Shown: in pieces, positions 3,917 to 26,238 of the stretch | Position numbering within the stretch: the first letter of the stretch is position 1 | Layout: every line of letters begins with the position of its first letter | Made by a program: the position numbers and the translations under genes | The notes under the pieces: model-generated | Database searches by the model: none | Told to the model about the DNA's origin: nothing | Seen by the model: the letters and a program-made list of their open reading frames with translations, nothing else | Source: Chitinispirillaceae bacterium | GTDB taxonomy: Bacteria; Fibrobacterota; Chitinivibrionia; Chitinivibrionales; Chitinispirillaceae | Length of the DNA: 27,000 bases | Direction of reading: 5' to 3' | NCBI GenBank assembly: GCA_016932075.1 | Contig: JAFGDP010000018.1 | Location: 1-27,000 of the forward strand

Positions 3917-4831
3917 TTATCGCCACACCTCGACGGGCAATCCGCGCTTGAGCGACCCTTCTCTGTTGTCGACCTCGGCCCGGACCCGGAACACAAGCTC
4001 ATTCCTGCTCTGCCGGGTCTGGATATTCTTGGGCGAGAACTCCGCCTCGTTGCCGATCCAGATCACGCGCGCAGGAAAGAACTTCTCTTTATCCTTTGTT
4101 GCACCATCATCAAAATCAAGCCTGATCCGCAGCTTTTGGTTGTAGCTGATACTTGCGAGCACTGCCTGGGGCACAAAAAAATCTGCATAGAGCGAGTCGA
4201 ATTCGCCGATCTCCATGATCGGATTGCCCGGGGCCACGACCTCACCGATGTTGCGGTAGCGTGTCAGGACGATCCCGTTTGCCGGCGACCGGACATAACA
4301 GCGGCGCACCTGGTCATCAAGCTCCTCAAGCTTGACCCGCAGCCCGTTCTCTTTCTCCTTGAGCGACAAATGCACGCGGCGGGCCGCCACCAGCCTCATC
4401 TGCGTTGACTGGAAGGCGGTTCCCAGTTTATCCCGCTGCTGTTCGGTCGCCGAGCCTTTTTTCACCAGCTCATCGATACGGGTATACTCACGTTCCGCAC
4501 CGGCGACGTCAGTAACCAGTCCCTTGATTTCGGCCTGCTTTGCTGAAATGGTGGTCATTAATTCCTTAATGTGGGACCGGACCTCCTGCTGCTTGAAAGT
4601 CAGCTGCACGGTATCAATGATCGCGAGCAGCTCATCCTTTTTAACGTTCTGTCCTTCATCCTTGTGCATGGCCACGATCACTCCCTGCGCCGTGGTCGAC
4701 ACCGCATACGTGCGCGCCTCCACGACCGCCGATCCGAGAAAATCCTTATGCGCGGTCTTGTCGCAGGAAAATGCCAGCAGAACCAGCGCCGCAAACACCC
4801 CCCGTGCGATGCAAAACGTCGTCTCTCTCAT
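3917..4831 (-). CDS. HlyD/YbhG-type periplasmic adaptor (membrane fusion) lipoprotein
   Basis: Periplasmic adaptor linking the inner-membrane ABC exporter to the TolC-like channel. The start chosen is the ATG at 4831 (304 aa): an AAAGAGG ribosome site lies 7 nt before it, whereas it would be only 1 nt from the upstream ATG at 4837. The N-terminus is a hydrophobic signal ending LLAFSC, a plausible lipobox with Cys23. A biotinyl-lipoyl-like segment follows (about 46-73, TAQGVIV...DELLAIID), then a long coiled-coil hairpin rich in E, K, R and Q (about 75-190), a second lipoyl half (YVRSPANGIVLTRYRNIGEVV), and a beta-barrel C-terminus. It sits between the outer-membrane gene and the ATPase genes in one operon. 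Confidence 0.92.
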   Translation of the reverse strand: MRETTFCIARGVFAALVLLAFSCDKTAHKDFLGSAVVEARTYAVSTTAQGVIVAMHKDEGQNVKKDELLAIIDTVQLTFKQQEVRSHIKELMTTISAKQAEIKGLVTDVAGAEREYTRIDELVKKGSATEQQRDKLGTAFQSTQMRLVAARRVHLSLKEKENGLRVKLEELDDQVRRCYVRSPANGIVLTRYRNIGEVVAPGNPIMEIGEFDSLYADFFVPQAVLASISYNQKLRIRLDFDDGATKDKEKFFPARVIWIGNEAEFSPKNIQTRQSRNELVFRVRAEVDNREGSLKRGLPVEVWR

Positions 4832-4931
4832 GTGCATACCTCTTTCTTGTTTCCCTCCGACGGCACACCGTGCGCGGATTTGAATCCCTTCACCATATTT
4901 CTAACACCGCCCGCCAGCCCATCCCCGGCTA

Positions 4932-6224
4932 TCAATATTCAAGGTCTTTTCCCATCGCAAAAAACAGCTGCTGCATGGCCATTTTCTTTGCCGTCTTTGC
5001 CTGCTCGACCCGGAGGTCCGCCTCGGCAAGATTGACCAGTGCATCGAGATAGTCGGCTGCCGTGACCACGCCGGCCTCAAGAGAATTTTTCAGGTCGTCT
5101 GCCAACGCCTGTGCGGCTTCGCGTGACGCCATGGTAGCGACGAGTCGCTCGGCGGCATTATTCACCTGCTCATGGGCTATGACGGACGTACGCTCCAGCG
5201 TTTCTATCCGGCGGGTGCGCTCGATATCGATAAGGTCAAGCTGCCGCGTAAACTGCTCATGCTGTGCGCGCACTTTAAGACCATCGAACAGATTCCATTG
5301 TAGCTGCAATCCGGCGAGCCCGTATCCCATGAACGTTGTCGATCCCATGCCAAGACCGGGATTGGCGTACCGATATCCCGCGATCCCCACCAGTGAGGGG
5401 AAATGGCGATATTTCAAAGAGTTTCGCATTTGTTCTATCTGAGCGCCGGCATGCGCAAGCATCACCAGTTCAGGCCGGGCCGTATCAACGAGCGCCCGCT
5501 TCGGGATCGGAAGCGTGTCAAAGGCGGTGCTCGTCGTGTCCGGAAATATCTCCTCATCCTTGCACAACACTAGCGACATGAGCTCCCGGCGCAGACTATC
5601 GGTCCTGTCCTCGGCATCCCCCAGGTCCACATGTGCGAGCTTCAAGCGTGCTTCCGCTTCAAGGCGTTTCGATCTCAGTGCCGTGCCGGCCTCGTGCATT
5701 GCCGTGACCTGGCGGACATACGACTCGAGCCGCTCTATAAGCGCACGCCGGACATCCGCCTGCTTGTACGAAAGCTCCCACTGCAGATATAAAAGGCCCA
5801 ACGAAAGCGTGATCCTGTTGATGGTGCTTTCGAGCATTGCTTTTTTTGACTCGGCATATTCCTGTTTGCTCCGGACCGCGAAATGGCGGGAAAATCCGGT
5901 AAATACTGGATAGGTACAATCAATGCCAAATTCGGTGCGGTCGTATCTTCCTATGGTGGTGTCGATGCTCATACCGGCGGCCGGAACGGCGAACCGGATC
6001 CTGTTTTTTTCCGACAACAGCGTGTACGATGCGCTCGCATCAAGCGAAGGCCACCATGCGGCGCGGGTTTCAACCAGTTCAGCCTCTACTTTTCGCAGCT
6101 CGGCTTCGGCCGCGAGGATGTCCAGATTGTTTTTAAGAAGCCGCTCGCGGGCTTCCCGCAGGGAAAAGGGGCCTGCGACAAGCGGCACTGACGCCAGCAG
6201 CAGCAACAGTAGGTGGCGGCTCAT
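4932..6224 (-). CDS. TolC-like outer membrane efflux protein
   Basis: Protein of 430 aa, the normal TolC-family length. A signal peptide (MSRHLLLLLLASVPLVAG) is followed by two related halves typical of outer-membrane efflux proteins: FSLREARERLLKNNLDILAAEAELRKVEAELVETRAAWWPSLD-type N-half helices, and a second copy from about residue 250 with FPSLVGIAGYRY and LQWNLFDG. The start overlaps the stop of the TetR-type regulator gene by 4 bp (6221-6224), so the channel is co-translated with its regulator. It would supply the outer-membrane exit duct for the exporter. E. coli ybhGFSR lacks such a gene and relies on a shared TolC, so this operon encodes a complete tripartite machine. Confidence 0.92.
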   Translation of the reverse strand: MSRHLLLLLLASVPLVAGPFSLREARERLLKNNLDILAAEAELRKVEAELVETRAAWWPSLDASASYTLLSEKNRIRFAVPAAGMSIDTTIGRYDRTEFGIDCTYPVFTGFSRHFAVRSKQEYAESKKAMLESTINRITLSLGLLYLQWELSYKQADVRRALIERLESYVRQVTAMHEAGTALRSKRLEAEARLKLAHVDLGDAEDRTDSLRRELMSLVLCKDEEIFPDTTSTAFDTLPIPKRALVDTARPELVMLAHAGAQIEQMRNSLKYRHFPSLVGIAGYRYANPGLGMGSTTFMGYGLAGLQLQWNLFDGLKVRAQHEQFTRQLDLIDIERTRRIETLERTSVIAHEQVNNAAERLVATMASREAAQALADDLKNSLEAGVVTAADYLDALVNLAEADLRVEQAKTAKKMAMQQLFFAMGKDLEY

Positions 6225-11402: not shown

Positions 11403-13445
11403 ATGAGTGATCATATACACGCTCCGGCCAAACCGGATACGGCTGCAAACGGATCTTCCCAATTGAGCGATCTCGACATCTACCTGTTCAGGCAGGGAAA
11501 CCATTGCCGGCTCTATGATAAGCTCGGCGCCCATCCTATCACTCTTGAGGACGGAAGCCTGGGCTACTACTTCGCGGTCTGGGCGCCCAATGCCAGAGCG
11601 GTATCGGTGGTGGGTGATTTCAACGGGTGGAAAAACGACGCCAACCGGCTCACGGCCAGGTCCGACGGTTCCGGCCTGTGGGAGGGGGTGGTCCCCGGTC
11701 TGGACAAGGGAAACCTGTACAAATACCATATCGAATCAGCAACTGACAACTACACGGCAAACCGCGGCGATCCGTACGCGTTTTTCTGGGAAACTCCACC
11801 AGCAACCTCCCCCATCACCTGGAACCTCGATTATACATGGAACGATTCGGCCTGGATGAAAAAACGTAAAAAGCATAATGCGCTCACCGGCCCGATCTCG
11901 GTCTATGAGGTCCACCTCGGATCGTGGCGCAGGAAAAGCGCGTCAAAAGACGATTTCCTTAATTACCGCGAGATCGCACCGCTTCTTGCGGATTATGTGA
12001 AGGAGCTTGGATTTACCCACGTGGAGTTCCTGCCCGTTATGGAGCATCCGTTCTACGGTTCATGGGGATACCAGACCACCGGCTACTTTGCGCCGACCAG
12101 CCGGTACGGCACGCCGCAGGATTTCATGTATCTGGTCGACTTTCTGCATCAGCAGGAAATAGGCGTGATCCTCGACTGGGTGCCGTCGCATTTCCCCAGC
12201 GACGAACACGGCCTGGTGTATTTTGACGGCACGCACCTGTACGAGCACAGCGATCCGCGCGAAGGATTTCATCCGGACTGGAAAAGCTACATTTACAACT
12301 ACGGCCGGGCCGAAGTCCGCTCATTTCTCTTCTCAAGCGCCATGTTCTGGCTTGACAAATACCATGCCGATGGTCTGCGGGTCGATGCCGTGGCATCCAT
12401 GCTCTATCGCGACTACTCACGGCCAGCCGGCCAGTGGATCCCGAACAAATACGGCGGCCGCGAAAACCTCGAGGCCATCGATTTCCTGAAAAAACTGAAT
12501 GTCGAAGTGTACAAGGCGTTTCCTGACGTGCAGATGATCGCCGAGGAGTCCACAGCCTGGCCAATGGTATCGAAACCGACCTATATCGGCGGCCTGGGAT
12601 TCGGCATGAAATGGAACATGGGCTGGATGCACGATACGCTTTATTACATGAGCAAGAATCCGATCCACCGGAAATACCATCATAATGAGCTCACCTTTTC
12701 CATGATTTACGCGTTTTCGGAAAACTACATGCTCCCCCTTTCACACGACGAAGTGGTGCACGGCAAACAGTCACTGGTCAATAAGATGCCGGGCGACGAC
12801 TGGCAGCGGCTCGCCAATCTCCGGCTGCTCTATTCTTATCAGTTTGCGCATCCCGGCAAAAAGCTGCTGTTCATGGGCGGCGAGTTTGCCCAGTGGTCCG
12901 AATGGGCGCACGACAGCTCCCTTGCGTTCGAACTCAGCCAGCATGACCGGCATAAGGGGATCGCGCTTCTGGTTCACGATTGCAATCGGCTTTATCGCTC
13001 GATAAAAGCGCTGCACGAATTTGATTTCGAGGCAACCGGTTTTGAATGGATCGATTTCAAGGACTGGGAGCACAGCGTGATCTCTTTTCTGCGCAAGGGC
13101 AGCGATCCCCATGAGGTGGTCCTGGTGGTGTGCAATTTCACTCCGGTGCCACGCTTTAACTATCGCGTCGGCGTTCCATTCGCCGGATACTGGAAAGAAA
13201 TTCTTAATAGTGATGCCGCGGTGTATGGCGGCAGCAACCTCGGCAACGGCGGAGGCGCGGAAAGTGCGGATCTGGCATGCTTTGGGAAAAAGCAGTCAGT
13301 GCAGCTCACGCTGCCGCCGCTTGCCGCAATCATGCTGCTCTACCAGAAAAAAGAGCCGGAAGCCGATACAATAATTGAAACCACCACAAATAGTAGCGAT
13401 AAAAAACGACAACCACAAAATGACCTCACGGATGCAATTCGCTGA
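11403..13445 (+). CDS. glgB: 1,4-alpha-glucan branching enzyme GlgB
   Basis: Glycogen branching enzyme of 680 aa (GH13). The N-terminal CBM48 domain is visible ([23 protein letters not shown], 54-76). The (beta/alpha)8 barrel carries DWVPSHF (258-264), [11 protein letters not shown] with nucleophile Asp328, IAEEST with acid/base Glu381, and [12 protein letters not shown] with Asp449. The spacing 328/381/449 equals that of E. coli Asp405/Glu458/Asp526, which argues for an active enzyme. It cuts alpha-1,4 glucan chains and re-attaches them in alpha-1,6 linkage in the cytoplasm. No other glycogen gene (glgA, glgC, glgP) is nearby. The last 35 residues are a hydrophilic tail not typical of the family. 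Its 3' end overlaps the next small ORF. Confidence 0.97.
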
Positions 13446-13761: not shown

Positions 13762-13920
13762 TCACTGCAGCTGAATGGCCTGCGCTTTTTACGCAGATTA
13801 TTCCTGTGTAGAGTGACTTCTCCGGCGATACCGGCTTACGCCCTGTTTTCGCGGGCCTGTTCATGCGGATGATGTTGTCTCAAACACCTGATCATGTTCG
13901 TTTTTTCATCGACCATAGTG

Positions 13921-14568
13921 ATGAGTCCAACGCTCTTATTTGATTTTGACGGCACCATAGCAGACACGCTCGAAATTTCGATCACGCTCGGGCGATCAGT
14001 ACTGGATTCGGTGAAACTGCACCATTTCACCGAAGAAGATATCATCCAGTTCCGCAACCTCCCTTTCAAGGAATCGGTGCGCAGGCTCAGAATTCCATTG
14101 CGTAAAATCCCGGCACTGGTTCTCCGTATCCGTCGAGGAATCCGGGACCACATTGACGAAATCGCGCCGTTTCCAGGGATTCGTGAAGCGCTTGCGGACA
14201 TCAGGAGCCACTGCTCTTTTCTGGGCATCATCACCTCGAACTCCAGAGAAAACGTAGCGTACTTTTTAAAAAAATTCGATCTGGATTTTTTCGACGCAGG
14301 AGCTTATTCCTCTGCGCTTTCAAATAAAACCTCAAAAATCCGCAGACTCATGCGGAAAAACTGCCTGGGGAAGGAAAACGTCATTTATATCGGCGACACG
14401 ACAAGTGATATCGACGATTGCAGAAACGTGGGGATCAAGGTGGCTGCCGTGACCTGGGGGTACAACACGAAGGCGGTTCTGGAAGCGGCAAAGCCTGATT
14501 TCCTTATAGAAAATGTCGAAGACTTGAAACTTCTTGCTTCACATGACCGACAGCCGCGGAGGGAGTAA
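13921..14568 (+). CDS. HAD-superfamily hydrolase, phosphoglycolate-phosphatase-like
   Basis: Haloacid-dehalogenase-type phosphatase of 215 aa. Motif I is LLFDFDGTIADT (nucleophile Asp8, acid/base Asp10), motif II is GIITSNS, motif III lysine lies in SNKTSKIRRL, and motif IV is IYIGDTTSDID. A helical cap occupies about residues 15-85. The ATG at 13921 is preferred over 13894 because motif I then sits at the usual distance from the N-terminus; GTG at 13918 is possible and no clear ribosome site marks any of them. The stop overlaps the galE start by one base (TAATG), so the two are coupled. Likely substrate: a small sugar phosphate; not determinable. Confidence 0.87.
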   Translation: MSPTLLFDFDGTIADTLEISITLGRSVLDSVKLHHFTEEDIIQFRNLPFKESVRRLRIPLRKIPALVLRIRRGIRDHIDEIAPFPGIREALADIRSHCSFLGIITSNSRENVAYFLKKFDLDFFDAGAYSSALSNKTSKIRRLMRKNCLGKENVIYIGDTTSDIDDCRNVGIKVAAVTWGYNTKAVLEAAKPDFLIENVEDLKLLASHDRQPRRE

Positions 14569-15554: not shown

Positions 15555-15636
15555 AAACAGATAAGCAATCCCATGCCTGACTTTTAACCACAAACAGATT
15601 ACATCCATCAACCAACGTCTCAAGGAATAACCAAGA

Positions 15637-17088
15637 ATGAAAAACGAAGCATTGCCCTTTGAAGTGGTCGAGTTTGAACGTCTTCTGAGGAAACCGACGA
15701 GCGATCCCACCGGTCTGGCCGGGTTTTTCAATTGCGGCGAAATCATGGCTGCCCGGGTACCGGCCCGCCTTGACGTCATGGGCGGTATTGCCGACTATTC
15801 CGGGGCAAACGTGTGCGAGGCGGTCCTTGGCCGCGGCATGCTCATGGCGCTGCAGCCGCGCACCGATAGAACGCTGCGCATCAGAACCATGCAGGTGGGG
15901 AAACAGAGCCTTCCGGTGGAGACCCGTATCCCGCTCGACTATTTTGAATCAGGCGAAGGTCTTGGCAGTTATGCCCAAATACGGGGACTCTTTCATGAAA
16001 ATCCGCTCGTCTCCTGGGTGGCATATATCGGCGGCTCCATCTTCACCCTGCTTAAAGAGGAATCCCTGCGGCTTCCCTATGGATTCAGCCTGCTTCTGCT
16101 CAGCGCAGTGCCCATGAATGTCGGTATCGGCAGCTCTGCGGCCGTGGAGATCGGCACGCTCAGCTGCCTGAACGCCTACCTCAGGCTTAACCTTGATGCA
16201 TCGCGGATTGCCCGGCTCGGCCAGATGGCCGAAAACCATGTGGTGGGCGCGCCGTGCGGCATCATGGACCAGATCGCGATCACCAGCGGCAAGCATAGAA
16301 AGCTTATCCATATCTTATGCAGACCCGGTTCGGTCCTTGGTGAGGTGGAGATCCCTGCTGGAACCGGATTCGTCGGCATCAATTCCATGATGCGCCATTC
16401 GGTCGCCGCGAATCCGTACAGCGATGTCAGAATCGGTGCATTCATGGGAAAGAGGATCATCAATGACCTGCGCGCAAAAAAAGGTCACGAGCCGGTCGAT
16501 TATCTGGCTGAAGTATCGGTCGAAGATATGAATTCAATGTATCTGACGCATCTTCCTGAAACCCTGCTCGGTTCGGAATTCACCAAGACCTATAAAACCC
16601 ATGATGACCCGGTGACAAAAATCCAGCCTGACGCGACCTACCGTGTGCGCGGGCCGGCCCTGCACCCGGTGGAAGAAAATGAGCGGGTGCTCTCTTTTAT
16701 CGACGCTCTGCGTCAGGCGTCAAATGGTGGCGGGGAAAAGTCCCTTATTGCCGCAGGTGAGGCAATGTACGGAGCGCACGAAAGCTACCGTGACAACTGC
16801 CACCTCTCGGTCGAAGAGGTGGATTTTCTGGTGGAGGCGGTCCGCCGCAGGGGTCCGAAAAACGGCCTCTACGGTGCAAAAATCACTGGCGGCGGAACCG
16901 GCGGGACCGTGGCGGTGTTTGGAAAAACAGAGGCATTGCACGAGCAAATTCCAAAAATAGCGGTCGATTATTCACGACGCATCGGCGTGCTGCCGGATGT
17001 GTTCGAAGGGACCTCGCCCGGCGCCATGGAGTTCGGCGCGCGGCGGTTCTGTTTCGGGCATGAAGGCTGGTCAGGCGGTCAAATATGA
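15637..17088 (+). CDS. GHMP sugar kinase resembling the kinase part of plant L-arabinokinase
   Basis: Kinase of 483 aa. The galactokinase-type substrate motif is PARLDVMGGIADYSGA (42-57), the ATP motif PMNVGIGSSAAVEIG (159-173), then ENHVVGAPCGIMDQ with presumed catalytic Asp211, and the C-terminal motif YGAKITGGGTGGTVAVFG (412-429). Several stretches look like plant L-arabinokinase (ARA1) as I remember it, rather than bacterial GalK: GINSMMRHSV, VRIGAFMG, ETLLGSEF, THDDPVTKI, RGPALHPVEENERV and FEGTSPGA. It would phosphorylate L-arabinose or galactose at C1. It overlaps the following pyrophosphorylase by 4 bp (ATGA), as expected if its sugar-1-phosphate is passed directly on. Family assignment is confident; the sugar is an inference. 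Confidence 0.85.
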   Translation: MKNEALPFEVVEFERLLRKPTSDPTGLAGFFNCGEIMAARVPARLDVMGGIADYSGANVCEAVLGRGMLMALQPRTDRTLRIRTMQVGKQSLPVETRIPLDYFESGEGLGSYAQIRGLFHENPLVSWVAYIGGSIFTLLKEESLRLPYGFSLLLLSAVPMNVGIGSSAAVEIGTLSCLNAYLRLNLDASRIARLGQMAENHVVGAPCGIMDQIAITSGKHRKLIHILCRPGSVLGEVEIPAGTGFVGINSMMRHSVAANPYSDVRIGAFMGKRIINDLRAKKGHEPVDYLAEVSVEDMNSMYLTHLPETLLGSEFTKTYKTHDDPVTKIQPDATYRVRGPALHPVEENERVLSFIDALRQASNGGGEKSLIAAGEAMYGAHESYRDNCHLSVEEVDFLVEAVRRRGPKNGLYGAKITGGGTGGTVAVFGKTEALHEQIPKIAVDYSRRIGVLPDVFEGTSPGAMEFGARRFCFGHEGWSGGQI

Positions 17089-20013: not shown

Positions 20014-20913
20014 ATGTTTCTCAATTCTCCCGTCCTCTCCCTGCTCAAAGCCCTTCGCCCTCACCAGTGGGTGAAAAATCTCCTGCTGTTCGCGCCGCTT
20101 GTCCTTGCCCACAAGTTGAATGATCCCGCCAGTTTCACAACGCTTCTTGTCGCATTCTGCCTGATGAGCATGGCTTCATCGGCAATGTACCTGATAAACG
20201 ACCTGTTCGACCGGGAAGCGGACCGCAAACATCCGGTCAAAAAAAACCGGCCGTTCGCCTCAGGCGCGTTTTCAGTCCGGACAGGTATCGTGATTGCCGG
20301 CGTGCTGCTCATCGCTGCATTTGCAGCGTCAATGGTTTTCCTTCCCGACCGTTTCACCCTCATCCTCACCCTCTATATCGTCTGCGTCCTGCTCTATTCG
20401 CTCGTTTTCAAGCACTGGCTCATGATCGATGTCATCCTGCTGTCGCTCTTTTACGGCCTGCGCATATTCGCCGGCGGCGTTGCCGTGGACATTCCGGTTT
20501 CACCATGGCTTCTGGCGTTTTCCTCGTTCTTCTTTCTGAGTCTTGCCTTTGTAAAACGATACGTGGAGCTGCAGCTTCACGAAGCAAAGCCGTCAGAGGT
20601 GGTGCAGGGCCGCTACTATCGTTTTGACGACCGCCACCTCGTACAGACTGCGGGCATTACCAGCGGATTCTTGAGCGTTCTCGTGTTCCTGCTCTATATC
20701 GCGAACTCAAAAGAGGTCAGCGAGTTTTATCCCCACCCCATGTGGCTCTGGATGATCGCGCCGCTGTTCATCTACTGGCTCATGCGGTTCTGGTTTCTTG
20801 CCGAACGTAAAAAAATCCACTCCGATCCGGTCACCTTTGCCATCAAGGACGGGGCGAGCTGGGCAACGGTGGGATTCTGCATACTGTTTCTGACCCTTGG
20901 ATCCATATCCTGA
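20014..20913 (+). CDS. UbiA-family prenyltransferase, decaprenyl-phosphate phosphoribosyltransferase-like
   Basis: Integral membrane protein of 299 aa with about nine hydrophobic helices. The first aspartate-rich motif is NDLFDREADRKHPVKKNRP (62-80), the UbiA NDxxDxxxD pattern with the K/R-rich loop that binds phosphate. The N-terminal LKALRPHQWVKNLLLFAPL is characteristic of the branch that includes Rv3806c, which transfers phosphoribose to a polyprenyl phosphate. The second motif is represented by HWLMIDVILLSLFYGLR. In an EPS locus it could make a lipid-linked sugar donor. Its stop codon overlaps the ribosome site of the next small ORF, joining it to the nucleotidyltransferase cluster. Confidence 0.88.
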   Translation: MFLNSPVLSLLKALRPHQWVKNLLLFAPLVLAHKLNDPASFTTLLVAFCLMSMASSAMYLINDLFDREADRKHPVKKNRPFASGAFSVRTGIVIAGVLLIAAFAASMVFLPDRFTLILTLYIVCVLLYSLVFKHWLMIDVILLSLFYGLRIFAGGVAVDIPVSPWLLAFSSFFFLSLAFVKRYVELQLHEAKPSEVVQGRYYRFDDRHLVQTAGITSGFLSVLVFLLYIANSKEVSEFYPHPMWLWMIAPLFIYWLMRFWFLAERKKIHSDPVTFAIKDGASWATVGFCILFLTLGSIS

Positions 20914-20922
20914 GGATACTGT

Positions 20923-21180
20923 TTGGGTAAACGTCATTTTGTTAATAGCGGAATTTCACTCCTTTCGGACATTGGAGAAAGCGACGAGTGGCGTTCCTGG
21001 TACTCGCTCACCCCGCAAAACCGCTGGAAGGAAACGGAGAAACTATGGAATTTTTACCTAAAAACCGGAGGGAATCTTGACCCAGAACCCGATTCTCAAA
21101 GTCCTTTCCGTGATGCATGGCTACCGGGTACGTTTTCTGCTCATCGGCGGACAGGCATGCGTACTATACGGAGGGTCTGA
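20923..21180 (+). CDS. Small helical partner protein A of nucleotidyltransferase A
   Basis: Protein of 85 aa from a TTG start; a GAGGA site that overlaps the ubiA stop lies 6 nt upstream. The sequence reads WRSWYSLTPQNRWKETEKLWNFY (about 23-45), then LDPEPDSQSPF (52-62). I recall the LDPEPDxQSPF segment from uncharacterised proteins next to nucleotidyltransferases, so I take it as real. Its last 104 bp overlap the nucleotidyltransferase gene in another frame. The block SLTPQNRW (28-35) resembles blocks in the small proteins at 23277 and 23452. Function unknown; an antitoxin-like or substrate role is an inference. Confidence 0.65.
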   Translation: MGKRHFVNSGISLLSDIGESDEWRSWYSLTPQNRWKETEKLWNFYLKTGGNLDPEPDSQSPFRDAWLPGTFSAHRRTGMRTIRRV

Positions 21181-21826
21181 ATTCAGCCGGGACACGGACC
21201 TTGCGGTTCTGCCGGACCGGGAAAATCTGGAGCGTCTCATGAAAGCTCTTAAACAATTACAGGCAGAAAAAATTGCGATTCCGGATATGTCAATTGATGC
21301 TTTACAAAAAGGCCATGCTGTCCATTTTCGCTGCAAACACCCCGATGTACTTGATATGCGAATCGATATCATGTCGATATTTCGTAATGCGCCCGCTTTT
21401 GAAACAATGTGGGATCGGCGGACAACCATGGATCTGGGCGATGGAATTGAAGTGGACGTCATTTCACTTCCTGATCTTATCGGCATAAAAAAAACGCAGC
21501 GAGACAAGGATTGGTTTCACATCCGAAGGTTAATTGAGGCGCATTATATGGAGAACAAGGAGAATCGCTCGCCTGATAATGCAAGTTTCTGGCTGACTGA
21601 ATCTCGGACACCAACCATGCTTCGATATCTTTTCAAGGAATTTTCAGACATCGCAACCGTAATCAGCCAGAAAAGAACCATTCTGAAACTTCTTCCTGAA
21701 TGCTCTGACGATCAATTATCACAGGCTTTGGCTGACGAAGAAAAATTGTTCAGAGATGCGGATAGAAAATATTGGCAGCCGCTGCTGGAAGAGCTTGAAA
21801 CCCTCAGGCATACCAGGAAAAAATAG
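21077..21826 (+). CDS. Minimal nucleotidyltransferase A
   Basis: Nucleotidyltransferase-fold protein of 249 aa from a TTG start with a strong GGAGGG ribosome site (21067-21072). The active site is complete: GGQ (24-26), the DxD pair in FSRDTDLAVL (Asp39, Asp41), and a third carboxylate in MRIDIMS (Asp97). The segment IKKTQRDKDWFHIRRLIE (about 137-154) is characteristic of an uncharacterised group of stand-alone transferases distantly related to AbiEii toxins and DUF6036. The C-terminal 90 residues are helical. The first 104 bp lie within the 3' part of the small partner gene. Only 3 bp separate it from the following HAD gene. Substrate unknown; NMP transfer to a protein or RNA is the usual reaction of the fold. 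Confidence 0.82.
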   Translation: MTQNPILKVLSVMHGYRVRFLLIGGQACVLYGGSEFSRDTDLAVLPDRENLERLMKALKQLQAEKIAIPDMSIDALQKGHAVHFRCKHPDVLDMRIDIMSIFRNAPAFETMWDRRTTMDLGDGIEVDVISLPDLIGIKKTQRDKDWFHIRRLIEAHYMENKENRSPDNASFWLTESRTPTMLRYLFKEFSDIATVISQKRTILKLLPECSDDQLSQALADEEKLFRDADRKYWQPLLEELETLRHTRKK

Positions 21827-21829
21827 ACC

Positions 21830-22486
21830 GTGCGGATATCTTCACTTATCTACGACTTCGACGGCACACTGGTTGATTCCAGGCAGGACGTTTTTGAAAG
21901 CCTGATGCACGCCTTTTCATCCAACGGTATTCCGGTTGATGCGCTACAGGCCGAAATCATCATGCAGATGCAGCTGCCAGAAGCAGTTACCTATGCCGCA
22001 CCTGGACTTCCCGTAGAAAAGAGAAACGCCATTATCGAGGCTTTCAAAAAACACTACGATGCGAGCGATTACCCGAACACCACACTGATGCCCGGTGCAA
22101 GAGAGCTCCTGGAGAAGTGCTTACAAAAATCGATACCCTGTTATATTGTTTCTAATAAGCGGCAGTATCCTATGCTTAAGATCCTTGAAAAATTCAATCT
22201 GCGAAAATTCTTTTCTGCCGTGTATAATCCGGACGTGATTGAGAGTAAAAAATTATCAAAAGCCGAACTTCTGGCCCAGGCGGTCATGACCCACGGACTC
22301 GACCGGAATTCCACCGCCTACATCGGTGATATGGACGCTGACGTGCAGGCAGCCAGGGAAAATGGATTGATCTCCATGGTCGTGGCAAACGGCTACGGCG
22401 TGGAAGCGGCTAAGGCCAGCAGGCCGGAGGTTGCGGTCAAGAATCTTCTTCAAATCAGGGAATTGATCTTTCCGAGGCAAACATGA
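21830..22486 (+). CDS. HAD-superfamily phosphatase (Gph/PpaX-like)
   Basis: Hydrolase of 218 aa from a GTG start. Motif I LIYDFDGTLVDS (Asp9, Asp11), motif II YIVSNK, motif III lysine in ESKKLSKAELL, and motif IV YIGDMDADVQAA are all intact; residues 20-80 form the helical cap. It belongs to the same broad class as the HAD protein at 13921 but is not closely similar. The stop overlaps the next nucleotidyltransferase start by 4 bp, so within this cluster it is coupled to nucleotidyltransferase B. A weak AGGA lies 12 nt upstream of the GTG. It could remove a phosphate or nucleotide added by its neighbours, which is speculation. Confidence 0.88.
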   Translation: MRISSLIYDFDGTLVDSRQDVFESLMHAFSSNGIPVDALQAEIIMQMQLPEAVTYAAPGLPVEKRNAIIEAFKKHYDASDYPNTTLMPGARELLEKCLQKSIPCYIVSNKRQYPMLKILEKFNLRKFFSAVYNPDVIESKKLSKAELLAQAVMTHGLDRNSTAYIGDMDADVQAARENGLISMVVANGYGVEAAKASRPEVAVKNLLQIRELIFPRQT

Positions 22487-23280
22487 ACAATCCCTATGAA
22501 GGGCTACACCGGGAATTCGCCCGTGCCGGAGCCAGGGTCATGTTGAGTTCCGGTCAAGCCTGTGTGATGTACGGGATTGCCGCGTTTTCCAAAGACGGCG
22601 ATTGGATTATCGAAGAGAGCGAAGAGTCCTGCCGGGTGGTCTTGTCAGTGCTCGAGAAGAACAATGCTTCCTATCGGCTTGGCGCTCCCTTGGATATCCG
22701 ATTCCTTTCGCAGGGATGGACAAGCCATTTTGAATATCAATCCGAAGATATTCGCATGCGCGTCGATTTCTGTTCGCGTCCCCCGCGAATTCAGTCGCTT
22801 GACGCACTCTGGAAAAACATGATTAATAAAAAGGGCATTGCTATCGTTGACGCGGAGTCATTGATACTTCTCAAGCAGACGCGCAGAATCCGCGATTATT
22901 CCGTCATCGGGGCGCTGGCAGAAACGCTCGGATTCAACGCAAACGTTCCGGAAATCGCGCTTGCCTTTCTTCAGGATTACGACTTGTTGAAGAAAGCGGT
23001 TGAAAGATGGCCTGATCAGGCGAGAAAAAGCGATAGAGACGCCGTGCGATTGATCGTATCGGGCGGGAGTCGCAGGGACGTGATCATTGCGATCGCCGTT
23101 GAACAGGACCTGTTGATCCAAAAAGATCAAGCCAGAATCGACTCGATGGTCGACTCGTCCAAGGATTTCAGTTCAAAGTTCTTTCTGCATAGAAAAAAAT
23201 GGAAAGAATGCGGTAGTCCTCTTTCACAACAGCACGCCGAACTGGTCAGCCTTGCTGAACAGTACCTGCAACCCCTTTGA
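22483..23280 (+). CDS. Nucleotidyltransferase-fold protein B (variant active site)
   Basis: Protein of 265 aa distantly similar to nucleotidyltransferase A: SSGQACVMYGIAAFSKDGDWII against IGGQACVLYGGSEFSRDTDLAV, MRVDFCS against MRIDIMS, and LLKQTRRIRDY against IKKTQRDKDW. The two aspartates (Asp38, Asp40) and third carboxylate (Asp95) remain. The first glycine of the GG motif is serine (SSGQ, 22-25), so activity may be altered. The 100-residue C-terminal half is helical. Start overlaps the HAD gene by 4 bp (ATGA); stop overlaps the small ORF that follows (TTGA). The pair A/B looks like an old duplication. Confidence 0.75.
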   Translation: MNNPYEGLHREFARAGARVMLSSGQACVMYGIAAFSKDGDWIIEESEESCRVVLSVLEKNNASYRLGAPLDIRFLSQGWTSHFEYQSEDIRMRVDFCSRPPRIQSLDALWKNMINKKGIAIVDAESLILLKQTRRIRDYSVIGALAETLGFNANVPEIALAFLQDYDLLKKAVERWPDQARKSDRDAVRLIVSGGSRRDVIIAIAVEQDLLIQKDQARIDSMVDSSKDFSSKFFLHRKKWKECGSPLSQQHAELVSLAEQYLQPL

Positions 23281-23465
23281 TTGATCCCAAACTCATCCGA
23301 CAGGCATCGCTCCGGTTATTGGAACCGTATACCATCTCCCCTGACACTCCCTATCTCAGCGAGGACCAGCAGGAGCTCTGTAAAATGACCCTTGAGCAGC
23401 GGAGCGCGTGGCGGGCGGAATGGCTGCGACTCGCTGCAAGCACCGACACCGATGACCGGGAATAA
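23277..23465 (+). CDS. Small helical protein B
   Basis: 62 aa from a TTG that overlaps the stop of nucleotidyltransferase B by 4 bp. It is charged and helical, with KMTLEQRSAWRAEWLRLAAS at 36-55; the block KMTLEQRS aligns with SLTPQNRW and SMSPERKL of the two other small proteins of the cluster. No domain recognised. The tight overlap on both sides and the shared block support a real gene, but the small size leaves doubt. Its last 14 bp overlap the next ORF. Confidence 0.55.
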   Translation: MIDPKLIRQASLRLLEPYTISPDTPYLSEDQQELCKMTLEQRSAWRAEWLRLAASTDTDDRE

Positions 23466-23724
23466 ATTGGACGCGGCTACCGACACCTCTCCTGCAATGG
23501 AAAAAATCCTGATCGAAGGCTACCGTTCAATGTCGCCGGAACGCAAACTGCGACAGGTAACAGCGCTCACTCAGATGGTGCAGCGGTTGGCACTCACGCG
23601 AATCCGCGAGCAATATGGCGCCATGACTGAAAAAGAGGAAAAACTCCGTCTCGCCGCGCTCTGGCTGCCGCGGGAGGACATGATCCGCTGGTTTGACTGG
23701 GACCCGGAGATCAAGGGGTATTAG
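23452..23724 (+). CDS. Small helical partner protein C of nucleotidyltransferase C
   Basis: 90 aa from the ATG at 23452 (an ATG at 23497, giving 75 aa, is an alternative; no clear ribosome site for either). The sequence ILIEGYRSMSPERKLRQVTALTQ (about 19-41) and WLPREDMIRWFDWDPE (71-86) resemble, from memory, small uncharacterised proteins encoded directly before stand-alone nucleotidyltransferases. It is predicted all-helical and cytoplasmic. The block SMSPERKL (26-33) is the clearest copy of the motif shared with the small proteins at 20923 and 23277. The stop is 1 bp from the nucleotidyltransferase C start. Confidence 0.72.
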   Translation: MTGNKLDAATDTSPAMEKILIEGYRSMSPERKLRQVTALTQMVQRLALTRIREQYGAMTEKEEKLRLAALWLPREDMIRWFDWDPEIKGY

Positions 23725-23725
23725 A

Positions 23726-24316
23726 ATGACTTCCGCAGACCCGATCGTCATTGTCGCAAAACTTGCACGCGTACTGGAATCACATTCCATTCCCTATGTG
23801 GTTGGAGGATCCCTCGCCAGTTCGCTCCATGGCATCCCGCGCGCGACCCAGGACGTGGATGTCGTGGTGGATTTAAAAGAACATCAGGTCGACCCTGTTG
23901 CTGAGGCGCTCGACAACGATTTCTTTTTCGACCGGGAAATGGCCAGGGATGCGATACGCAGGCGTTCCTCGTTCAACATCATTGATAAAGAGGAATTTTT
24001 CAAGATCGATCTTTTTATTCAAAAAAACGACGAGGTTTCCGAAGAAGAGCTTTCCCGGAGAAAGCTTCATGCAATCGCGGATGTTCAGGGACAATCGATC
24101 TATCTGTGCAGTCCGGAGGACATCATCGCGCACAAATTGTACTGGTATAAACTCGGCGACGGTGTATCGGAACGGCAATGGAGCGATGCGCTAAATGTCA
24201 TCAAAGTACAAAACCAACGGCTGGACATTGACTATCTGACCCGGGTTTGCGCCGCCCGGGGAGTATCTGATCTGCTGCGCAAGGCGCTTGATTCTGTTTC
24301 TGGAGGGTCTGCCTGA
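23726..24316 (+). CDS. Minimal nucleotidyltransferase C (DUF6036/AbiEii-like)
   Basis: Protein of 196 aa; ATG at 23726 chosen because AAGGGG lies 7 nt upstream and it directly follows the partner gene stop. The active site is complete: VVGGSLASSLHG (25-36) with GGS, the DxD pair in ATQDVDVVVDL (Asp43, Asp45), and the third carboxylate in FKIDLFI (Asp95). SPEDIIAHKLYWYKLG (129-144) is the lysine-containing helix typical of DUF6036/AbiEii-type transferases. With its upstream helical partner it resembles a two-gene toxin-antitoxin-like unit. Its stop overlaps the rfbG start by one base (TGATG), so it is also built into the sugar operon. Confidence 0.85.
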   Translation: MTSADPIVIVAKLARVLESHSIPYVVGGSLASSLHGIPRATQDVDVVVDLKEHQVDPVAEALDNDFFFDREMARDAIRRRSSFNIIDKEEFFKIDLFIQKNDEVSEEELSRRKLHAIADVQGQSIYLCSPEDIIAHKLYWYKLGDGVSERQWSDALNVIKVQNQRLDIDYLTRVCAARGVSDLLRKALDSVSGGSA

Positions 24317-25407
24317 TGACATCCGCATTCTGGAAAAACAAACGCGTCTTTGTCACCGGCCATACCGGGTTCAAAGGCTCCTGGCTTTGCCTTTGGCTGC
24401 ATAAGCTCGGCGCGCAGATAACTGGTTACTCGCTTGCGCCGCCGACAGATCCGAACCTGTTCGAACTAGCCAATATCCGATCATGTACCAGATCCATTCA
24501 TGGCGATGTCCGCAACCAGAAAGCGCTCCACGATGCCATATCACAAGCATACCCTGAAATCATCTTCCATCTCGCGGCCCAGCCGCTGGTACGGGATTCC
24601 TACAAAGTCCCTGTCGAAACCTATGAAACCAATGTAATGGGAACTGTCAACCTGCTCGAAGCGATTAGGACCTCAGCGTCTTCAGTCAGAGCGGTTATCA
24701 ATGTGACGACGGACAAGGTGTACGAAAATCCTGAACGCGACCAGGGATTCAAAGAAGGCGAACCGCTCGGCGGGTATGATCCCTATTCCAACAGCAAAGC
24801 ATGCTCTGAACTGGTCACCGCAGCATATCGGACCTCCTATTTCAATCCCGCAGATTATGAACGCCACCAATGCGGAGTCGCTACAGCTCGTGCCGGCAAC
24901 GTGATCGGCGGCGGCGACTGGGCCACAGACCGGATAGTTCCTGATTGCATTCGCTCCTTTATGAAAAGTGAACGCGTTATTCTGCGCAATCCGCACTCAA
25001 CCAGACCCTGGCAGCATGTACTGGAACCGCTCAGCGGGTATCTGCTGCTTGCGCAGAACCTATTTAACGACGGGAAAAACTTTTCAGAAGCCTGGAATTT
25101 CGGCCCGCATGACAAAGACTGTGTTCCGGTGGTCTCACTTGTTGAAAACCTTTGCACTGCGTGGGGTAATGGCGCAAAGTTTGAACTCAAACCCGACCAC
25201 GGCCCGCACGAAGCATCATATCTCAAGCTTAACTGGTCCAAGGCCGCATCGCGACTCTCTTGGTTTCCGCAATGGCATATCGAAACAGCCATAGCAAAGA
25301 CTGCCAGTTGGTACCGGAATGTCTCTAAAGGGAAAAATGCTCAAGAAGAGTGTTTACAGCAGATTGAGGAGTATGAAAATGCTGAGGGCAAGACGAAGAA
25401 TAAATAG
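24316..25407 (+). CDS. rfbG: CDP-glucose 4,6-dehydratase
   Basis: Extended short-chain dehydrogenase of 363 aa, the usual RfbG length. Motifs: FVTGHTGFKGSWL (12-24) with the GxxGxxG NAD site, FHLAAQPLVRDSY (84-96), INVTTDKVYEN (128-138) with the active-site TDK, and DPYSNSKACSE (155-165) with Tyr157 and Lys161. GNVIGGGDWATDRIVPDC and NPHSTRPWQHVLEPLSGYL are specific to this enzyme rather than dTDP-glucose dehydratase. It makes CDP-4-keto-6-deoxyglucose, the precursor of 3,6-dideoxyhexoses and related sugars. Its usual partners rfbF and rfbH are not in the window; instead it directly follows nucleotidyltransferase C with a 1-bp overlap. Confidence 0.95.
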   Translation: MTSAFWKNKRVFVTGHTGFKGSWLCLWLHKLGAQITGYSLAPPTDPNLFELANIRSCTRSIHGDVRNQKALHDAISQAYPEIIFHLAAQPLVRDSYKVPVETYETNVMGTVNLLEAIRTSASSVRAVINVTTDKVYENPERDQGFKEGEPLGGYDPYSNSKACSELVTAAYRTSYFNPADYERHQCGVATARAGNVIGGGDWATDRIVPDCIRSFMKSERVILRNPHSTRPWQHVLEPLSGYLLLAQNLFNDGKNFSEAWNFGPHDKDCVPVVSLVENLCTAWGNGAKFELKPDHGPHEASYLKLNWSKAASRLSWFPQWHIETAIAKTASWYRNVSKGKNAQEECLQQIEEYENAEGKTKNK

Positions 25408-25544: not shown

Positions 25545-25868
25545 ATGATTCCATCAGAAACCCAAGACGAAATCGTTCAAAGAATCCGTCATGTAACAGA
25601 CGCTATTTCCATAGTGCTTTTTGGCTCCCATGCTTATGGGAGCCCCACTGAATCGAGCGATCTTGACATCGCCGTTATCTGTAAAAACATGTCGTCAAAA
25701 ACAAAAGAATGCGTGAAAATACGGCGAGCATTGTCCGGCATCCGGCATTCAATTGACGTCATTGTAGCGACACCGGAAGAATTTGAGACCTATAAAAAAG
25801 AAGCCGGATCTGTATTCAGGACAATCTTTGAAAAAGGAAAAATTCTTTATGCCGGACAAGCCGCCTAA
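25545..25868 (+). CDS. MNT-type minimal nucleotidyltransferase (MntA-like)
   Basis: 107 aa, a complete minimal nucleotidyltransferase domain. The signature is LFGSHAYGSPTESSDLDIAV (GS at 27-28, Asp39 and Asp41), with the third carboxylate in HSIDVIV (Asp71). Such proteins pair with HEPN proteins; in characterised MntA/HepT pairs the MNT protein adenylylates and silences the HEPN toxin. The following HEPN gene starts inside its last 20 bp. Ribosome site weak. It lies alone with its partner between rfbG and the Wzz-like gene, with AT-richer sequence than the sugar genes, suggesting acquisition as a unit. Confidence 0.92.
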   Translation: MIPSETQDEIVQRIRHVTDAISIVLFGSHAYGSPTESSDLDIAVICKNMSSKTKECVKIRRALSGIRHSIDVIVATPEEFETYKKEAGSVFRTIFEKGKILYAGQAA

Positions 25869-26238
25869 ACACTATGAAATATTGCGACAAAAGGCGGATG
25901 TTGATCTGGCTGCGGTTGAACATCTCATACATGCACCGGACATTGACTCTGAGCTGCTCCTGTTTCATCTTCAACAGGCAGCGGAAAAATATTTAAAAGC
26001 GCTTCTTTCACATCGAAATATCCATTTTGAAAAAACCCACGACCTAATCGAGCTCCTTGATTTGTGCGCTGAAAACGATATCATCTTGCCTGATTACGCC
26101 AATGAATTCGAAAATTTATACCCCTATGCGGTTCAGGGAAGATATGAAATGACATCATCCGCGGATGTAGATCCGGGATTATTTCTTAAAAAATTACAGA
26201 TCTTCAAGACCTTTATCCATAAAGAAACTAATCAGTAG
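25849..26238 (+). CDS. HEPN domain protein, partner of the MNT nucleotidyltransferase
   Basis: 129 aa from the ATG at 25849, which overlaps the MNT gene by 20 bp; the longer frame from 25783 only adds a shadow of the MNT coding region. HEPN features: LRQKADVDLAAVEHLI (12-27), FHLQQAAEKYLKALL (39-53), FEKTHDLIELLDLC (60-73) and YPYAVQGRYEM (91-101). This is the PF05168-type HEPN. The RNase motif Rx4-6H is not found, nor the RX4HXY motif of HepT, so ribonuclease activity is doubtful. It is all-helical and probably forms a complex with the MNT protein. Confidence 0.88.
   Translation: MPDKPPKHYEILRQKADVDLAAVEHLIHAPDIDSELLLFHLQQAAEKYLKALLSHRNIHFEKTHDLIELLDLCAENDIILPDYANEFENLYPYAVQGRYEMTSSADVDPGLFLKKLQIFKTFIHKETNQ

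Follow-up and report, generated by a model that had tools for sequence, protein, structure and literature searches.

MenT1 is the tRNA-modifying toxin of the MenAT1 system (Rv0078B–Rv0078A), and its small partner is the antitoxin. PMC10435456 reports 21 menA1 genes, 15 of which lie upstream of a menT-like gene, and describes the AbiEi-type antitoxins as two-domain proteins. The AbiE and MenAT3-4 systems, composed of a DUF1814/AbiEii toxin and an AbiEi-type antitoxin, draw their toxins from the same nucleotidyltransferase (NTase) superfamily. The HEPN/MNT systems (HepT–MntA, type VII) are also two-gene NTase modules, in which MntA is reported to modify HepT (PMC7641770).

We compared these systems with a locus in a 27,000-nucleotide stretch of a Chitinispirillaceae genome (contig JAFGDP010000018.1, referred to as the window). 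The sugar-coat gene cluster of the window holds three different two-gene pairs, each consisting of an NTase (NT1, NT2, and NT3) and its own small partner (SM1, SM2, and SM3). All six genes are packed between ubiA and rfbG. The features of the locus are as follows:

20923–21180, + strand: SM1, small partner of NT1, 85 aa by its TTG start, core at 20977–21114
21067–21072, + strand: GGAGGG, Shine–Dalgarno-like site of NT1, encoding Gly-Gly of SM1
21076–21108, + strand: 33-nt stretch constrained in two frames, SM1 LDPEPDSQSPF / NT1 start and TQNPILKVLS
21077–21826, + strand: NT1, MenT-like nucleotidyltransferase, predicted toxin, TTG start
21830–22486, + strand: phosphatase of the HAD family (PF13419), not conserved as a partner
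22483–23280, + strand: NT2, homologue of NT1 and likewise a nucleotidyltransferase and predicted toxin
23277–23465, + strand: SM2, small partner of NT2, downstream of NT2
23452–23724, + strand: SM3, small partner of NT3, alternative start at 23497
23726–24316, + strand: NT3, DUF6036/AbiEii-like nucleotidyltransferase, best solved profile match MenT1
24316–25407, + strand: rfbG, CDP-glucose 4,6-dehydratase of the host locus (TIGR02622, 497.8 bits, cut-off 278.45)
25545–25868, + strand: MNT-type nucleotidyltransferase of a HEPN/MNT pair (MntA model NF047752, 41.6 bits, below the cut-off of 60)
25849–26238, + strand: HEPN-domain protein, start approximate (PF05168, 3.1e-17, scanned as 25783–26235)

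A preliminary description of this DNA had proposed three NTase-fold genes with a small ORF beside each, as is indeed the case. It had also described the run from ubiA to rfbG as gapless. The overlaps are real (SM1/NT1 104 bp, HAD/NT2 4 bp, NT2/SM2 4 bp, SM2/SM3 14 bp, and NT3/rfbG 1 bp), but short gaps separate ubiA from SM1 (9 bp), NT1 from the HAD gene (3 bp), and SM3 from NT3 (1 bp). The separate HEPN/MNT pair at 25545–26238 represents a fourth NTase module of the same locus.

The window NTases have the MenT fold. The predicted catalytic carboxylates following the G-[GS]/SSG loop and the conserved Lys and Asp of the C-terminal motifs are present in NT1–NT3, as mapped onto MenT1 by profile alignments, for NT2 through NT1. 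In the alignment with NT1, MenT1 D149 has a conserved counterpart, whereas D152 has none. Also conserved is a Ser/Thr located two positions ahead of the first catalytic Asp (NT1 S37, NT2 S36, and NT3 T41), so that fold, Asp/Lys pattern, and this Ser/Thr are common to MenAT1 and the window NTases. NT1 and NT2, with 249 and 265 aa, differ from MenT1 in their greater length and extra C-terminal helices. MenT1 is the top fold match of NT1 by a small margin, and MenT3 is also among the structural matches. For NT2, the top Foldseek matches are structures of JHP933 of Helicobacter pylori (4ok0_A, 2.0e-6; 4o8s, 3.4e-6), yet at about 15% identity. Because LnuA and ANT(2")-Ia rank among the top structural matches, with LnuA tying with MenT1 for NT2, the NTases might instead modify small molecules such as antibiotics with the aid of an accessory subunit. 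We regard this as very unlikely, since the sequence profiles of NT1 and NT3 match MenT1 in the PDB, every close copy of NT1 has the small partner, and the overlapping gene arrangement is conserved (see below).

Profile–profile comparison finds NT1 homologous to NT2 with a probability of 99.2% and to NT3 with one of 97%, whereas the direct comparison of NT2 with NT3 gives only 6%. As for known families, NT1 and NT2 of the window match neither AbiEii (PF08843) nor DUF6036 (PF19502), and NT3 shows weak similarity below the cut-offs of both (16.3 bits against 22.5 for PF08843; 19.2 bits against 23.6 for PF19502). NT1 nevertheless borders on DUF6036, as precomputed PF19502 matches occur in 3/120 NT1 homologues and in 0/120 NT2 homologues among the matches listed. 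Among the family models that we tried, none fits SM1, SM2, or NT2, and the partners are far smaller than the AbiEi-type antitoxins, whose families they do not match either. None of SM1, SM2, and SM3 matches the MenA1 model (PF18993, cut-off 27.1 bits). Remote similarity to it appears at E ≤ 0.1 in 3/37 relatives of SM3, the best of which (P0311, 22.7 bits) stays below the cut-off.

The small proteins had been thought to share a helical block and thereby to mark a repeated module. Compared with each other by profile–profile alignment, they give probabilities of only 0.2%, 1.0%, and 0.1%. The best alignment of SM1 with SM3, which is not significant, covers eight columns and coincides with the proposed block, whose three-way 8-mer BLOSUM62 score of 33 was equalled or beaten in 99 of 100 shufflings. 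Homology through this block is thus rejected; the resemblance likely stems from an [LM]-[ST]-P type of helix N-cap. The two-gene organization stands, with its pairs conserved in 80/80 and 23/23 loci, but not as a single repeat: the profiles indicate three partner families associated with related NTases rather than one module repeated.

In a genome scan, the SM1 gene runs over the start of NT1 in all 80 loci kept, the best 80 of 388 NT1 places. Loci were taken above 150 bits, a cut that removed two NT1-like rows: L113, at 133 bits, and a fragment of 23 bits in L163. NT1 itself has 3859 homologues at E ≤ 1e-3. SM1, with a conserved core of about 45 residues, EW..WY.LTP..RW.....LW..Y...GG.LDPEPD.QSPF (20977–21114), shows mean entropies of 0.68/0.61/1.26 at codon positions 1/2/3 (81 rows), which marks SM1 as a selected protein. 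In contrast to the layout of MenAT1, the overlap with NT1 is dual-coded. At 21076–21108, a run of 33 nt is under constraint in each of the two frames (mean entropies 0.22/0.04/0.34), and a GGAG lies within 13 nt upstream of the NT1 start in 74/81 rows. Together, the dual-frame segment and the Shine–Dalgarno-like site inside SM1 fix a TTG start of the NTase. The SM1 frame loses its constraint near codon +14, whereas that of NT1 keeps it. The N-terminal Asn-Pro of NT1 is near-invariant also in NT2, the start of which is free of such an overlap in the window; selection thus probably acts on the NT1 frame in its own right. We considered an operator or a recombination site behind the conserved 33 nt. 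Such a DNA-level element is not needed as the cause because a sequence that encodes two conserved proteins in different frames has little room to vary and because the SM1-frame constraint stops where that of NT1 continues, although an additional DNA-level constraint on top of the coding may exist. Across phyla, this overlap offers a clean example from nature of selection acting on two frames at once.

SM2 is located downstream of its NTase, unlike the partner in MenAT1, and follows NT2 in 23/23 loci, including all seven outside the set from which the SM2 profile was built. Its mean entropies of 0.83/0.69/1.46 at codon positions 1/2/3, from 22 of 24 rows (the two left out lack the anchor motif), indicate a gene under selection. 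We found 366 NT2 homologues at E ≤ 1e-3; in the phylum to which genome G192 belongs, a search of 296 genomes at E ≤ 1e-25 was empty and, having no positive control, is uninformative alone. SM3 has 96 protein homologues. Pairing is less general here: SM3 adjoins NT3 in 8/27 NT3 rows, with strong scores in only three distinct places. The expected co-occurrence across genomes therefore holds for SM1–NT1 and NT2–SM2 and is clear for SM3–NT3 in those three places only. SM1 and SM3 lie directly upstream of their NTases, as the small partner does in MenAT1.

The HAD phosphatase, previously described as coupled to the second NTase gene, occurs only in the window: no homologue was found at E ≤ 0.1 in 147 fetched loci, whose flanks are often only about 1.5 kb. 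We rejected it as a module member. This also bears on the proposal of a regulatory system in which proteins are nucleotidylated to control the synthesis of polysaccharide and the HAD protein acts as eraser. The modules do lie in exopolysaccharide (EPS) operons of the window and of two further loci. In L173, SM1–NT1 and SM3–NT3 are flanked by homologues of two window genes, the MarR-type regulator on one side and the Wzz-type gene on the other, and in L169 NT2–SM2 adjoins homologues of the MarR-type regulator and rfbG; a few other genomes likewise have NTase modules, sometimes stacked, in their polysaccharide loci. However, once queries from a locus are excluded when that locus is scored, polysaccharide-type homologues occur within 5 kb of 4/23 NT2 and 4/80 NT1 loci (Fisher p 0.072), and with window queries alone near 2/23 and 2/80 (p 0.21); neither comparison is significant or phylum-matched. 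A first count of 7/23 against 4/80 (p 0.002) was inflated by own-locus queries, and in a hand-corrected 5/23 (p 0.025) L177 was still included through queries of its own. That NT2 modules are overrepresented in such loci is not established. The neighbouring genes are unrelated, and those of NT1, counted from 120 aa upwards, lie on either strand, as predicted by a simple gene caller that admits some false ORFs. Regulation of polysaccharide synthesis, which gained no positive evidence, appears highly improbable.

Location beside phage-receptor genes could also suggest phage defence, in which the same NTase/partner chemistry would be triggered by infection rather than serve addiction. The weak AbiEii match of NT3 and, in a few genomes, a position among surface-polysaccharide genes are consistent with it. 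The NT1 neighbours gave no clear defence signal (overlong neighbours were trimmed to 500 aa before scanning), and we consider this reading unlikely. It concerns role rather than mechanism and overlaps with a toxin–antitoxin explanation.

We consider it probable that three adjacent, distinct MenAT/AbiE-like toxin–antitoxin-type modules are carried as cargo by a surface-polysaccharide operon. The earlier suggestion of stacked units of this type is supported by the conserved pairing and the resemblance to MenT, and the patchy spread is compatible with it. NT1–NT3, of the polymerase-beta-fold MenT/AbiEii kind, would attack translation by extending an RNA end with added nucleotides, for which tRNA is the presumable target by the precedent of MenT1 and MenT3. 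The mutually unrelated SM1, SM2, and SM3 would each bind their own NTase and keep it inactive. By analogy with MenA1–MenT1, one helix may suffice for silencing, and the partner might also drive phosphorylation of the conserved Ser/Thr (S37, S36, and T41). In module 1, the antitoxin gene would come first, with the Shine–Dalgarno-like site of the toxin gene inside its Gly-Gly codons. Whereas the overlap, the TTG start, and the dual-frame constraint are observed, the coupling of toxin to antitoxin translation and a resulting dosage control are inferred. The HEPN/MNT pair would likewise be accessory cargo inside the operon.

The roles could also be inverse, as in HEPN/MNT, with a toxic or effector small protein silenced by nucleotidylation. 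The HEPN/MNT pair in the same locus, the reported modification of HepT by MntA (PMC7641770), and the strict co-conservation of SM1 and SM2 with their NTases speak for this layout. Unlike the partner at 25849–26238, however, SM1–SM3 match neither HEPN (PF05168) nor any other toxin family in our scans, the SM1 core has only about 45 residues, and the profiles of NT1 and NT3 match MenT1, whose known small partner is the antitoxin. We find an inverse layout rather unlikely.

Taken as toxin–antitoxin modules, SM1–NT1 and NT2–SM2 might constitute two undescribed families of this NTase-based kind, the 33-nt two-frame stretch might weld SM1 to NT1 across phyla by preventing their recombination apart, and stacks might anchor exchangeable surface-polysaccharide loci. 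This extended proposal is tentative and on balance doubtful, its odds being lowered by the unestablished enrichment in such loci. The partners in these two widespread pairs are nameless in the family libraries searched; if they are antitoxins, they would be new small antitoxins for the MenT kind, and the proposed rule that a single helix suffices for silencing an NTase toxin could be tested on unrelated partners. The stacking in some polysaccharide loci similarly offers a testable idea on how such loci are kept or guarded. Our searches of viral contigs, plasmids, and phages returned no module copy, and we found no published description of these pairs in the open-access PMC literature. The modules are patchily distributed, and bacteria that are only distantly related have two of the three pairs in common.

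Three nucleotidyltransferase (NTase) genes of the window, NT1, NT2 and NT3, are each accompanied by a gene for a small partner protein (SM1, SM2 and SM3, respectively), in the following order:

20014–20913, ubiA (name presumed from the sequence)
20923–21180, +, SM1, small partner of NT1
21077–21826, +, NT1, NTase
21830–22486, +, HAD phosphatase (family match)
22483–23280, +, NT2, NTase
23277–23465, +, SM2, small partner of NT2
23452–23724, +, SM3, small partner of NT3
23726–24316, +, NT3, NTase
24316–25407, +, rfbG (family match)
25545–25868, +, MNT gene (family match)
ends at 26238, +, HEPN gene (family match)
from 26273, Wzz-type chain-length protein (name presumed from the sequence)

For ubiA, Wzz and MarR-EPS, we presume the names from the sequences, with no family match behind them. 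The HEPN/MNT pair (25545-26238), located between rfbG and the Wzz-type gene, is a fourth NTase-containing module of the same locus. A second HAD-family gene at 13894-14568 is similar to the HAD gene at 21830 (40 bits). In the scan of named genomes, the locus had its nearest named relative in a Chitinispirillaceae contig (L001/L173), to whose organism the host of the window is probably related.

The pairing of SM1 with NT1 is conserved. NT1 has 3859 homologues at E <= 1e-3, 120 of which were listed, and a scan with the NT1 alignment located 388 NT1-encoding places in named genomes. Among the best 80 of these 388 places, an SM1 homologue overlaps the NT1 start on the same strand at 80/80 loci, in line with the two-gene module proposed in the preliminary description. 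A plain motif search upstream, made before the profile count and using no SM1 profile, had recovered SM1 at 71 of the 80. Over all loci, with same-place repeats counted, SM1 is present with 122/122 NT1 rows above 150 bits, and 0 of 122 SM1 matches lie away from NT1; a weaker NT1-like match (L113, 133 bits) is without SM1. One genome, G173, has two close NT1 copies, on contigs C51 and C42 (L210 and L214).

The 104-bp overlap of SM1 and NT1 noticed in the preliminary description is real. Position-specific variation over 81 rows (the 80 loci and the window), with codons numbered around the SM1 Gly-Gly, revealed three zones. Codons −27 to +2 vary mostly at SM1-frame third positions (mean entropy 0.68/0.61/1.26), indicating selection on SM1 as a protein. 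In codons +3 to +13, which read LDPEPDxQSPF in SM1 and the start followed by xPNPILKVLS in NT1, all three positions show little variation, codon +9 excepted (means 0.22/0.04/0.34), and hence constraint acts on both frames. Codons +14 to +38 are most variable at the NT1-frame third position (1.11/0.43/0.34), which suggests a passive SM1 tail. The start codon of NT1 is TTG in 80/81 rows, and GGAG occurs <=13 nt upstream of the start in 74/81 rows, within the Gly-Gly codons of SM1. The zones, the start codon and the GGAG together identify the overlap as a conserved design rather than an annotation accident.

NT2 has 366 homologues and no Pfam match. Comparison by hhalign nevertheless shows homology to NT1 (99.2%), and the NT2 profile matches 42/42 genomes picked for having NT1, mostly with NT1-typical scores. 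An SM2 homologue lies directly downstream of NT2 in 17/18 NT2 rows, the window counted, the exception being L162 (66 bits). In a second, larger set, to which L162 does not belong, SM2 is downstream of NT2 in 23/23 loci; seven of these (L224–L230) come from a phylum sample fetched after the SM2 profile had been built and are thus an independent test. This pairing, too, is conserved. SM2 is under selection and falls into two sub-types, that of the window also being found in L082, L088 and L148, and the other, more frequent, having Y-[STA]-HGVF or a near variant at its end.

As for the third pair, SM3 has 96 homologues and lies <=300 nt from NT3 in 8/27 NT3 rows scoring above 100 bits; strong cases come from three distinct places, namely the window, L001 (including re-fetches) and L119. 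Weak SM3 scores near NT3 occur in L121 (34 bits), L128 (18) and L131 (17). In L240, NT3 is overlapped by a different 69-residue ORF (5243-5452) with an LSPARKW stretch, which looks like a further small partner. NT2-SM2 of L169/L082 is preceded by a homologue of SM3 (94 bits; L169 3996-4163), and NT3 was not seen on that contig.

The three small proteins are not detectable relatives by sequence. A common block had been noticed in them, but pairwise comparison of their profiles gave probabilities of 0.2%, 1.0% and 0.1%, and the block score of 33 was equalled or bettered by 99/100 shuffles. Nonetheless, the best alignment of SM1 and SM3 is this block, which also opens the stretch of P0311, an SM3 relative, that matches PF18993, the model of the Rv0078B/MenA1 antitoxin. 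A similar helix start in SM1 and SM3 is therefore possible; it does not count as evidence of common descent. Two SM3 relatives match PF18993 at 9.8e-5 and 9.8e-4, under the cut-off, and 3/37 do so at E <= 0.1.

The NT3 profile matches MenT1, the tRNA-modifying toxin of MenAT1 (8an4, 7.5e-13). The NTases have their fold in common with MenT1, and their predicted catalytic residues are intact. As a single sequence, the window NT3 matched 5uvd (0.0027) and did not find MenT1. By analogy, the pairs probably work like MenAT1 in outline, although they miss the curated membership thresholds. Each NTase would be a toxin blocking translation and its small partner the antitoxin, acting by binding and possibly also by induced phosphorylation; the SM1/NT1 overlap would tie toxin output to antitoxin output. 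The window SM1, SM2 and NT2 gave no match in Pfam, NCBIfam or PADLOC at the thresholds used, and the best Pfam match of NT1 is at 0.061. Among the 120 NT1 homologues listed, 3 have a precomputed DUF6036 (PF19502) match, which places NT1 at the border of this family of unknown function. Our searches of open-access PMC articles returned no description of the pairs.

The 147 nearest NT1 neighbours at the 80 loci (excluding proteins <120 aa) have matches to 126 Pfam families, none of the 25 families among the matches listed occurring in more than three proteins, and occur on both strands, as expected of an independent, portable unit. In the phylum of L001, 20/167 genomes have some match, one of the 20 with a close NT1; in the family of G173, 5/11 genomes have matches, three of them close, the seed counted.

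The module stack is probably accessory cargo of the polysaccharide locus. Polysaccharide-type homologues within 5 kb, own-locus queries left out, occur at 4/23 NT2 versus 4/80 NT1 loci (p 0.072); restricting the queries to those from the window gives 2/23 versus 2/80 (p 0.21), so enrichment of NT2 modules is not established and the following loci serve as examples. In L173, SM1–NT1 and SM3–NT3 are flanked by homologues of two genes of the window, the MarR-type regulator and the Wzz-type gene, in a window-like placement. In L169, NT2–SM2 adjoins homologues of the MarR-type regulator and rfbG. In L239, GDP-mannose dehydratase-type and epimerase-type genes precede NT2–SM2 and two more NTase-like genes (12563-13075 and 15628-16068). 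In L240, wecG-type and family-9 glycosyltransferase genes are followed by NT2–SM2, then a gmhA-like gene (so named by eye), and then NT3. Truncated and intact gmhA-like ORFs (2601-2942 and 4640-5230) flank NT2-SM2 there, as though a duplication had brought the module along. Immediately upstream of SM1 in L173 lies a short HEPN-like ORF (2715-2954, named by eye), with no MNT partner seen. Further stacking is hinted at by homologues listed on contigs of equal size: NT1 and NT2 (6969 and 3093 bases), NT2 and SM3 (4504 and 20951 bases), and NT1 and SM3 (4864 bases).
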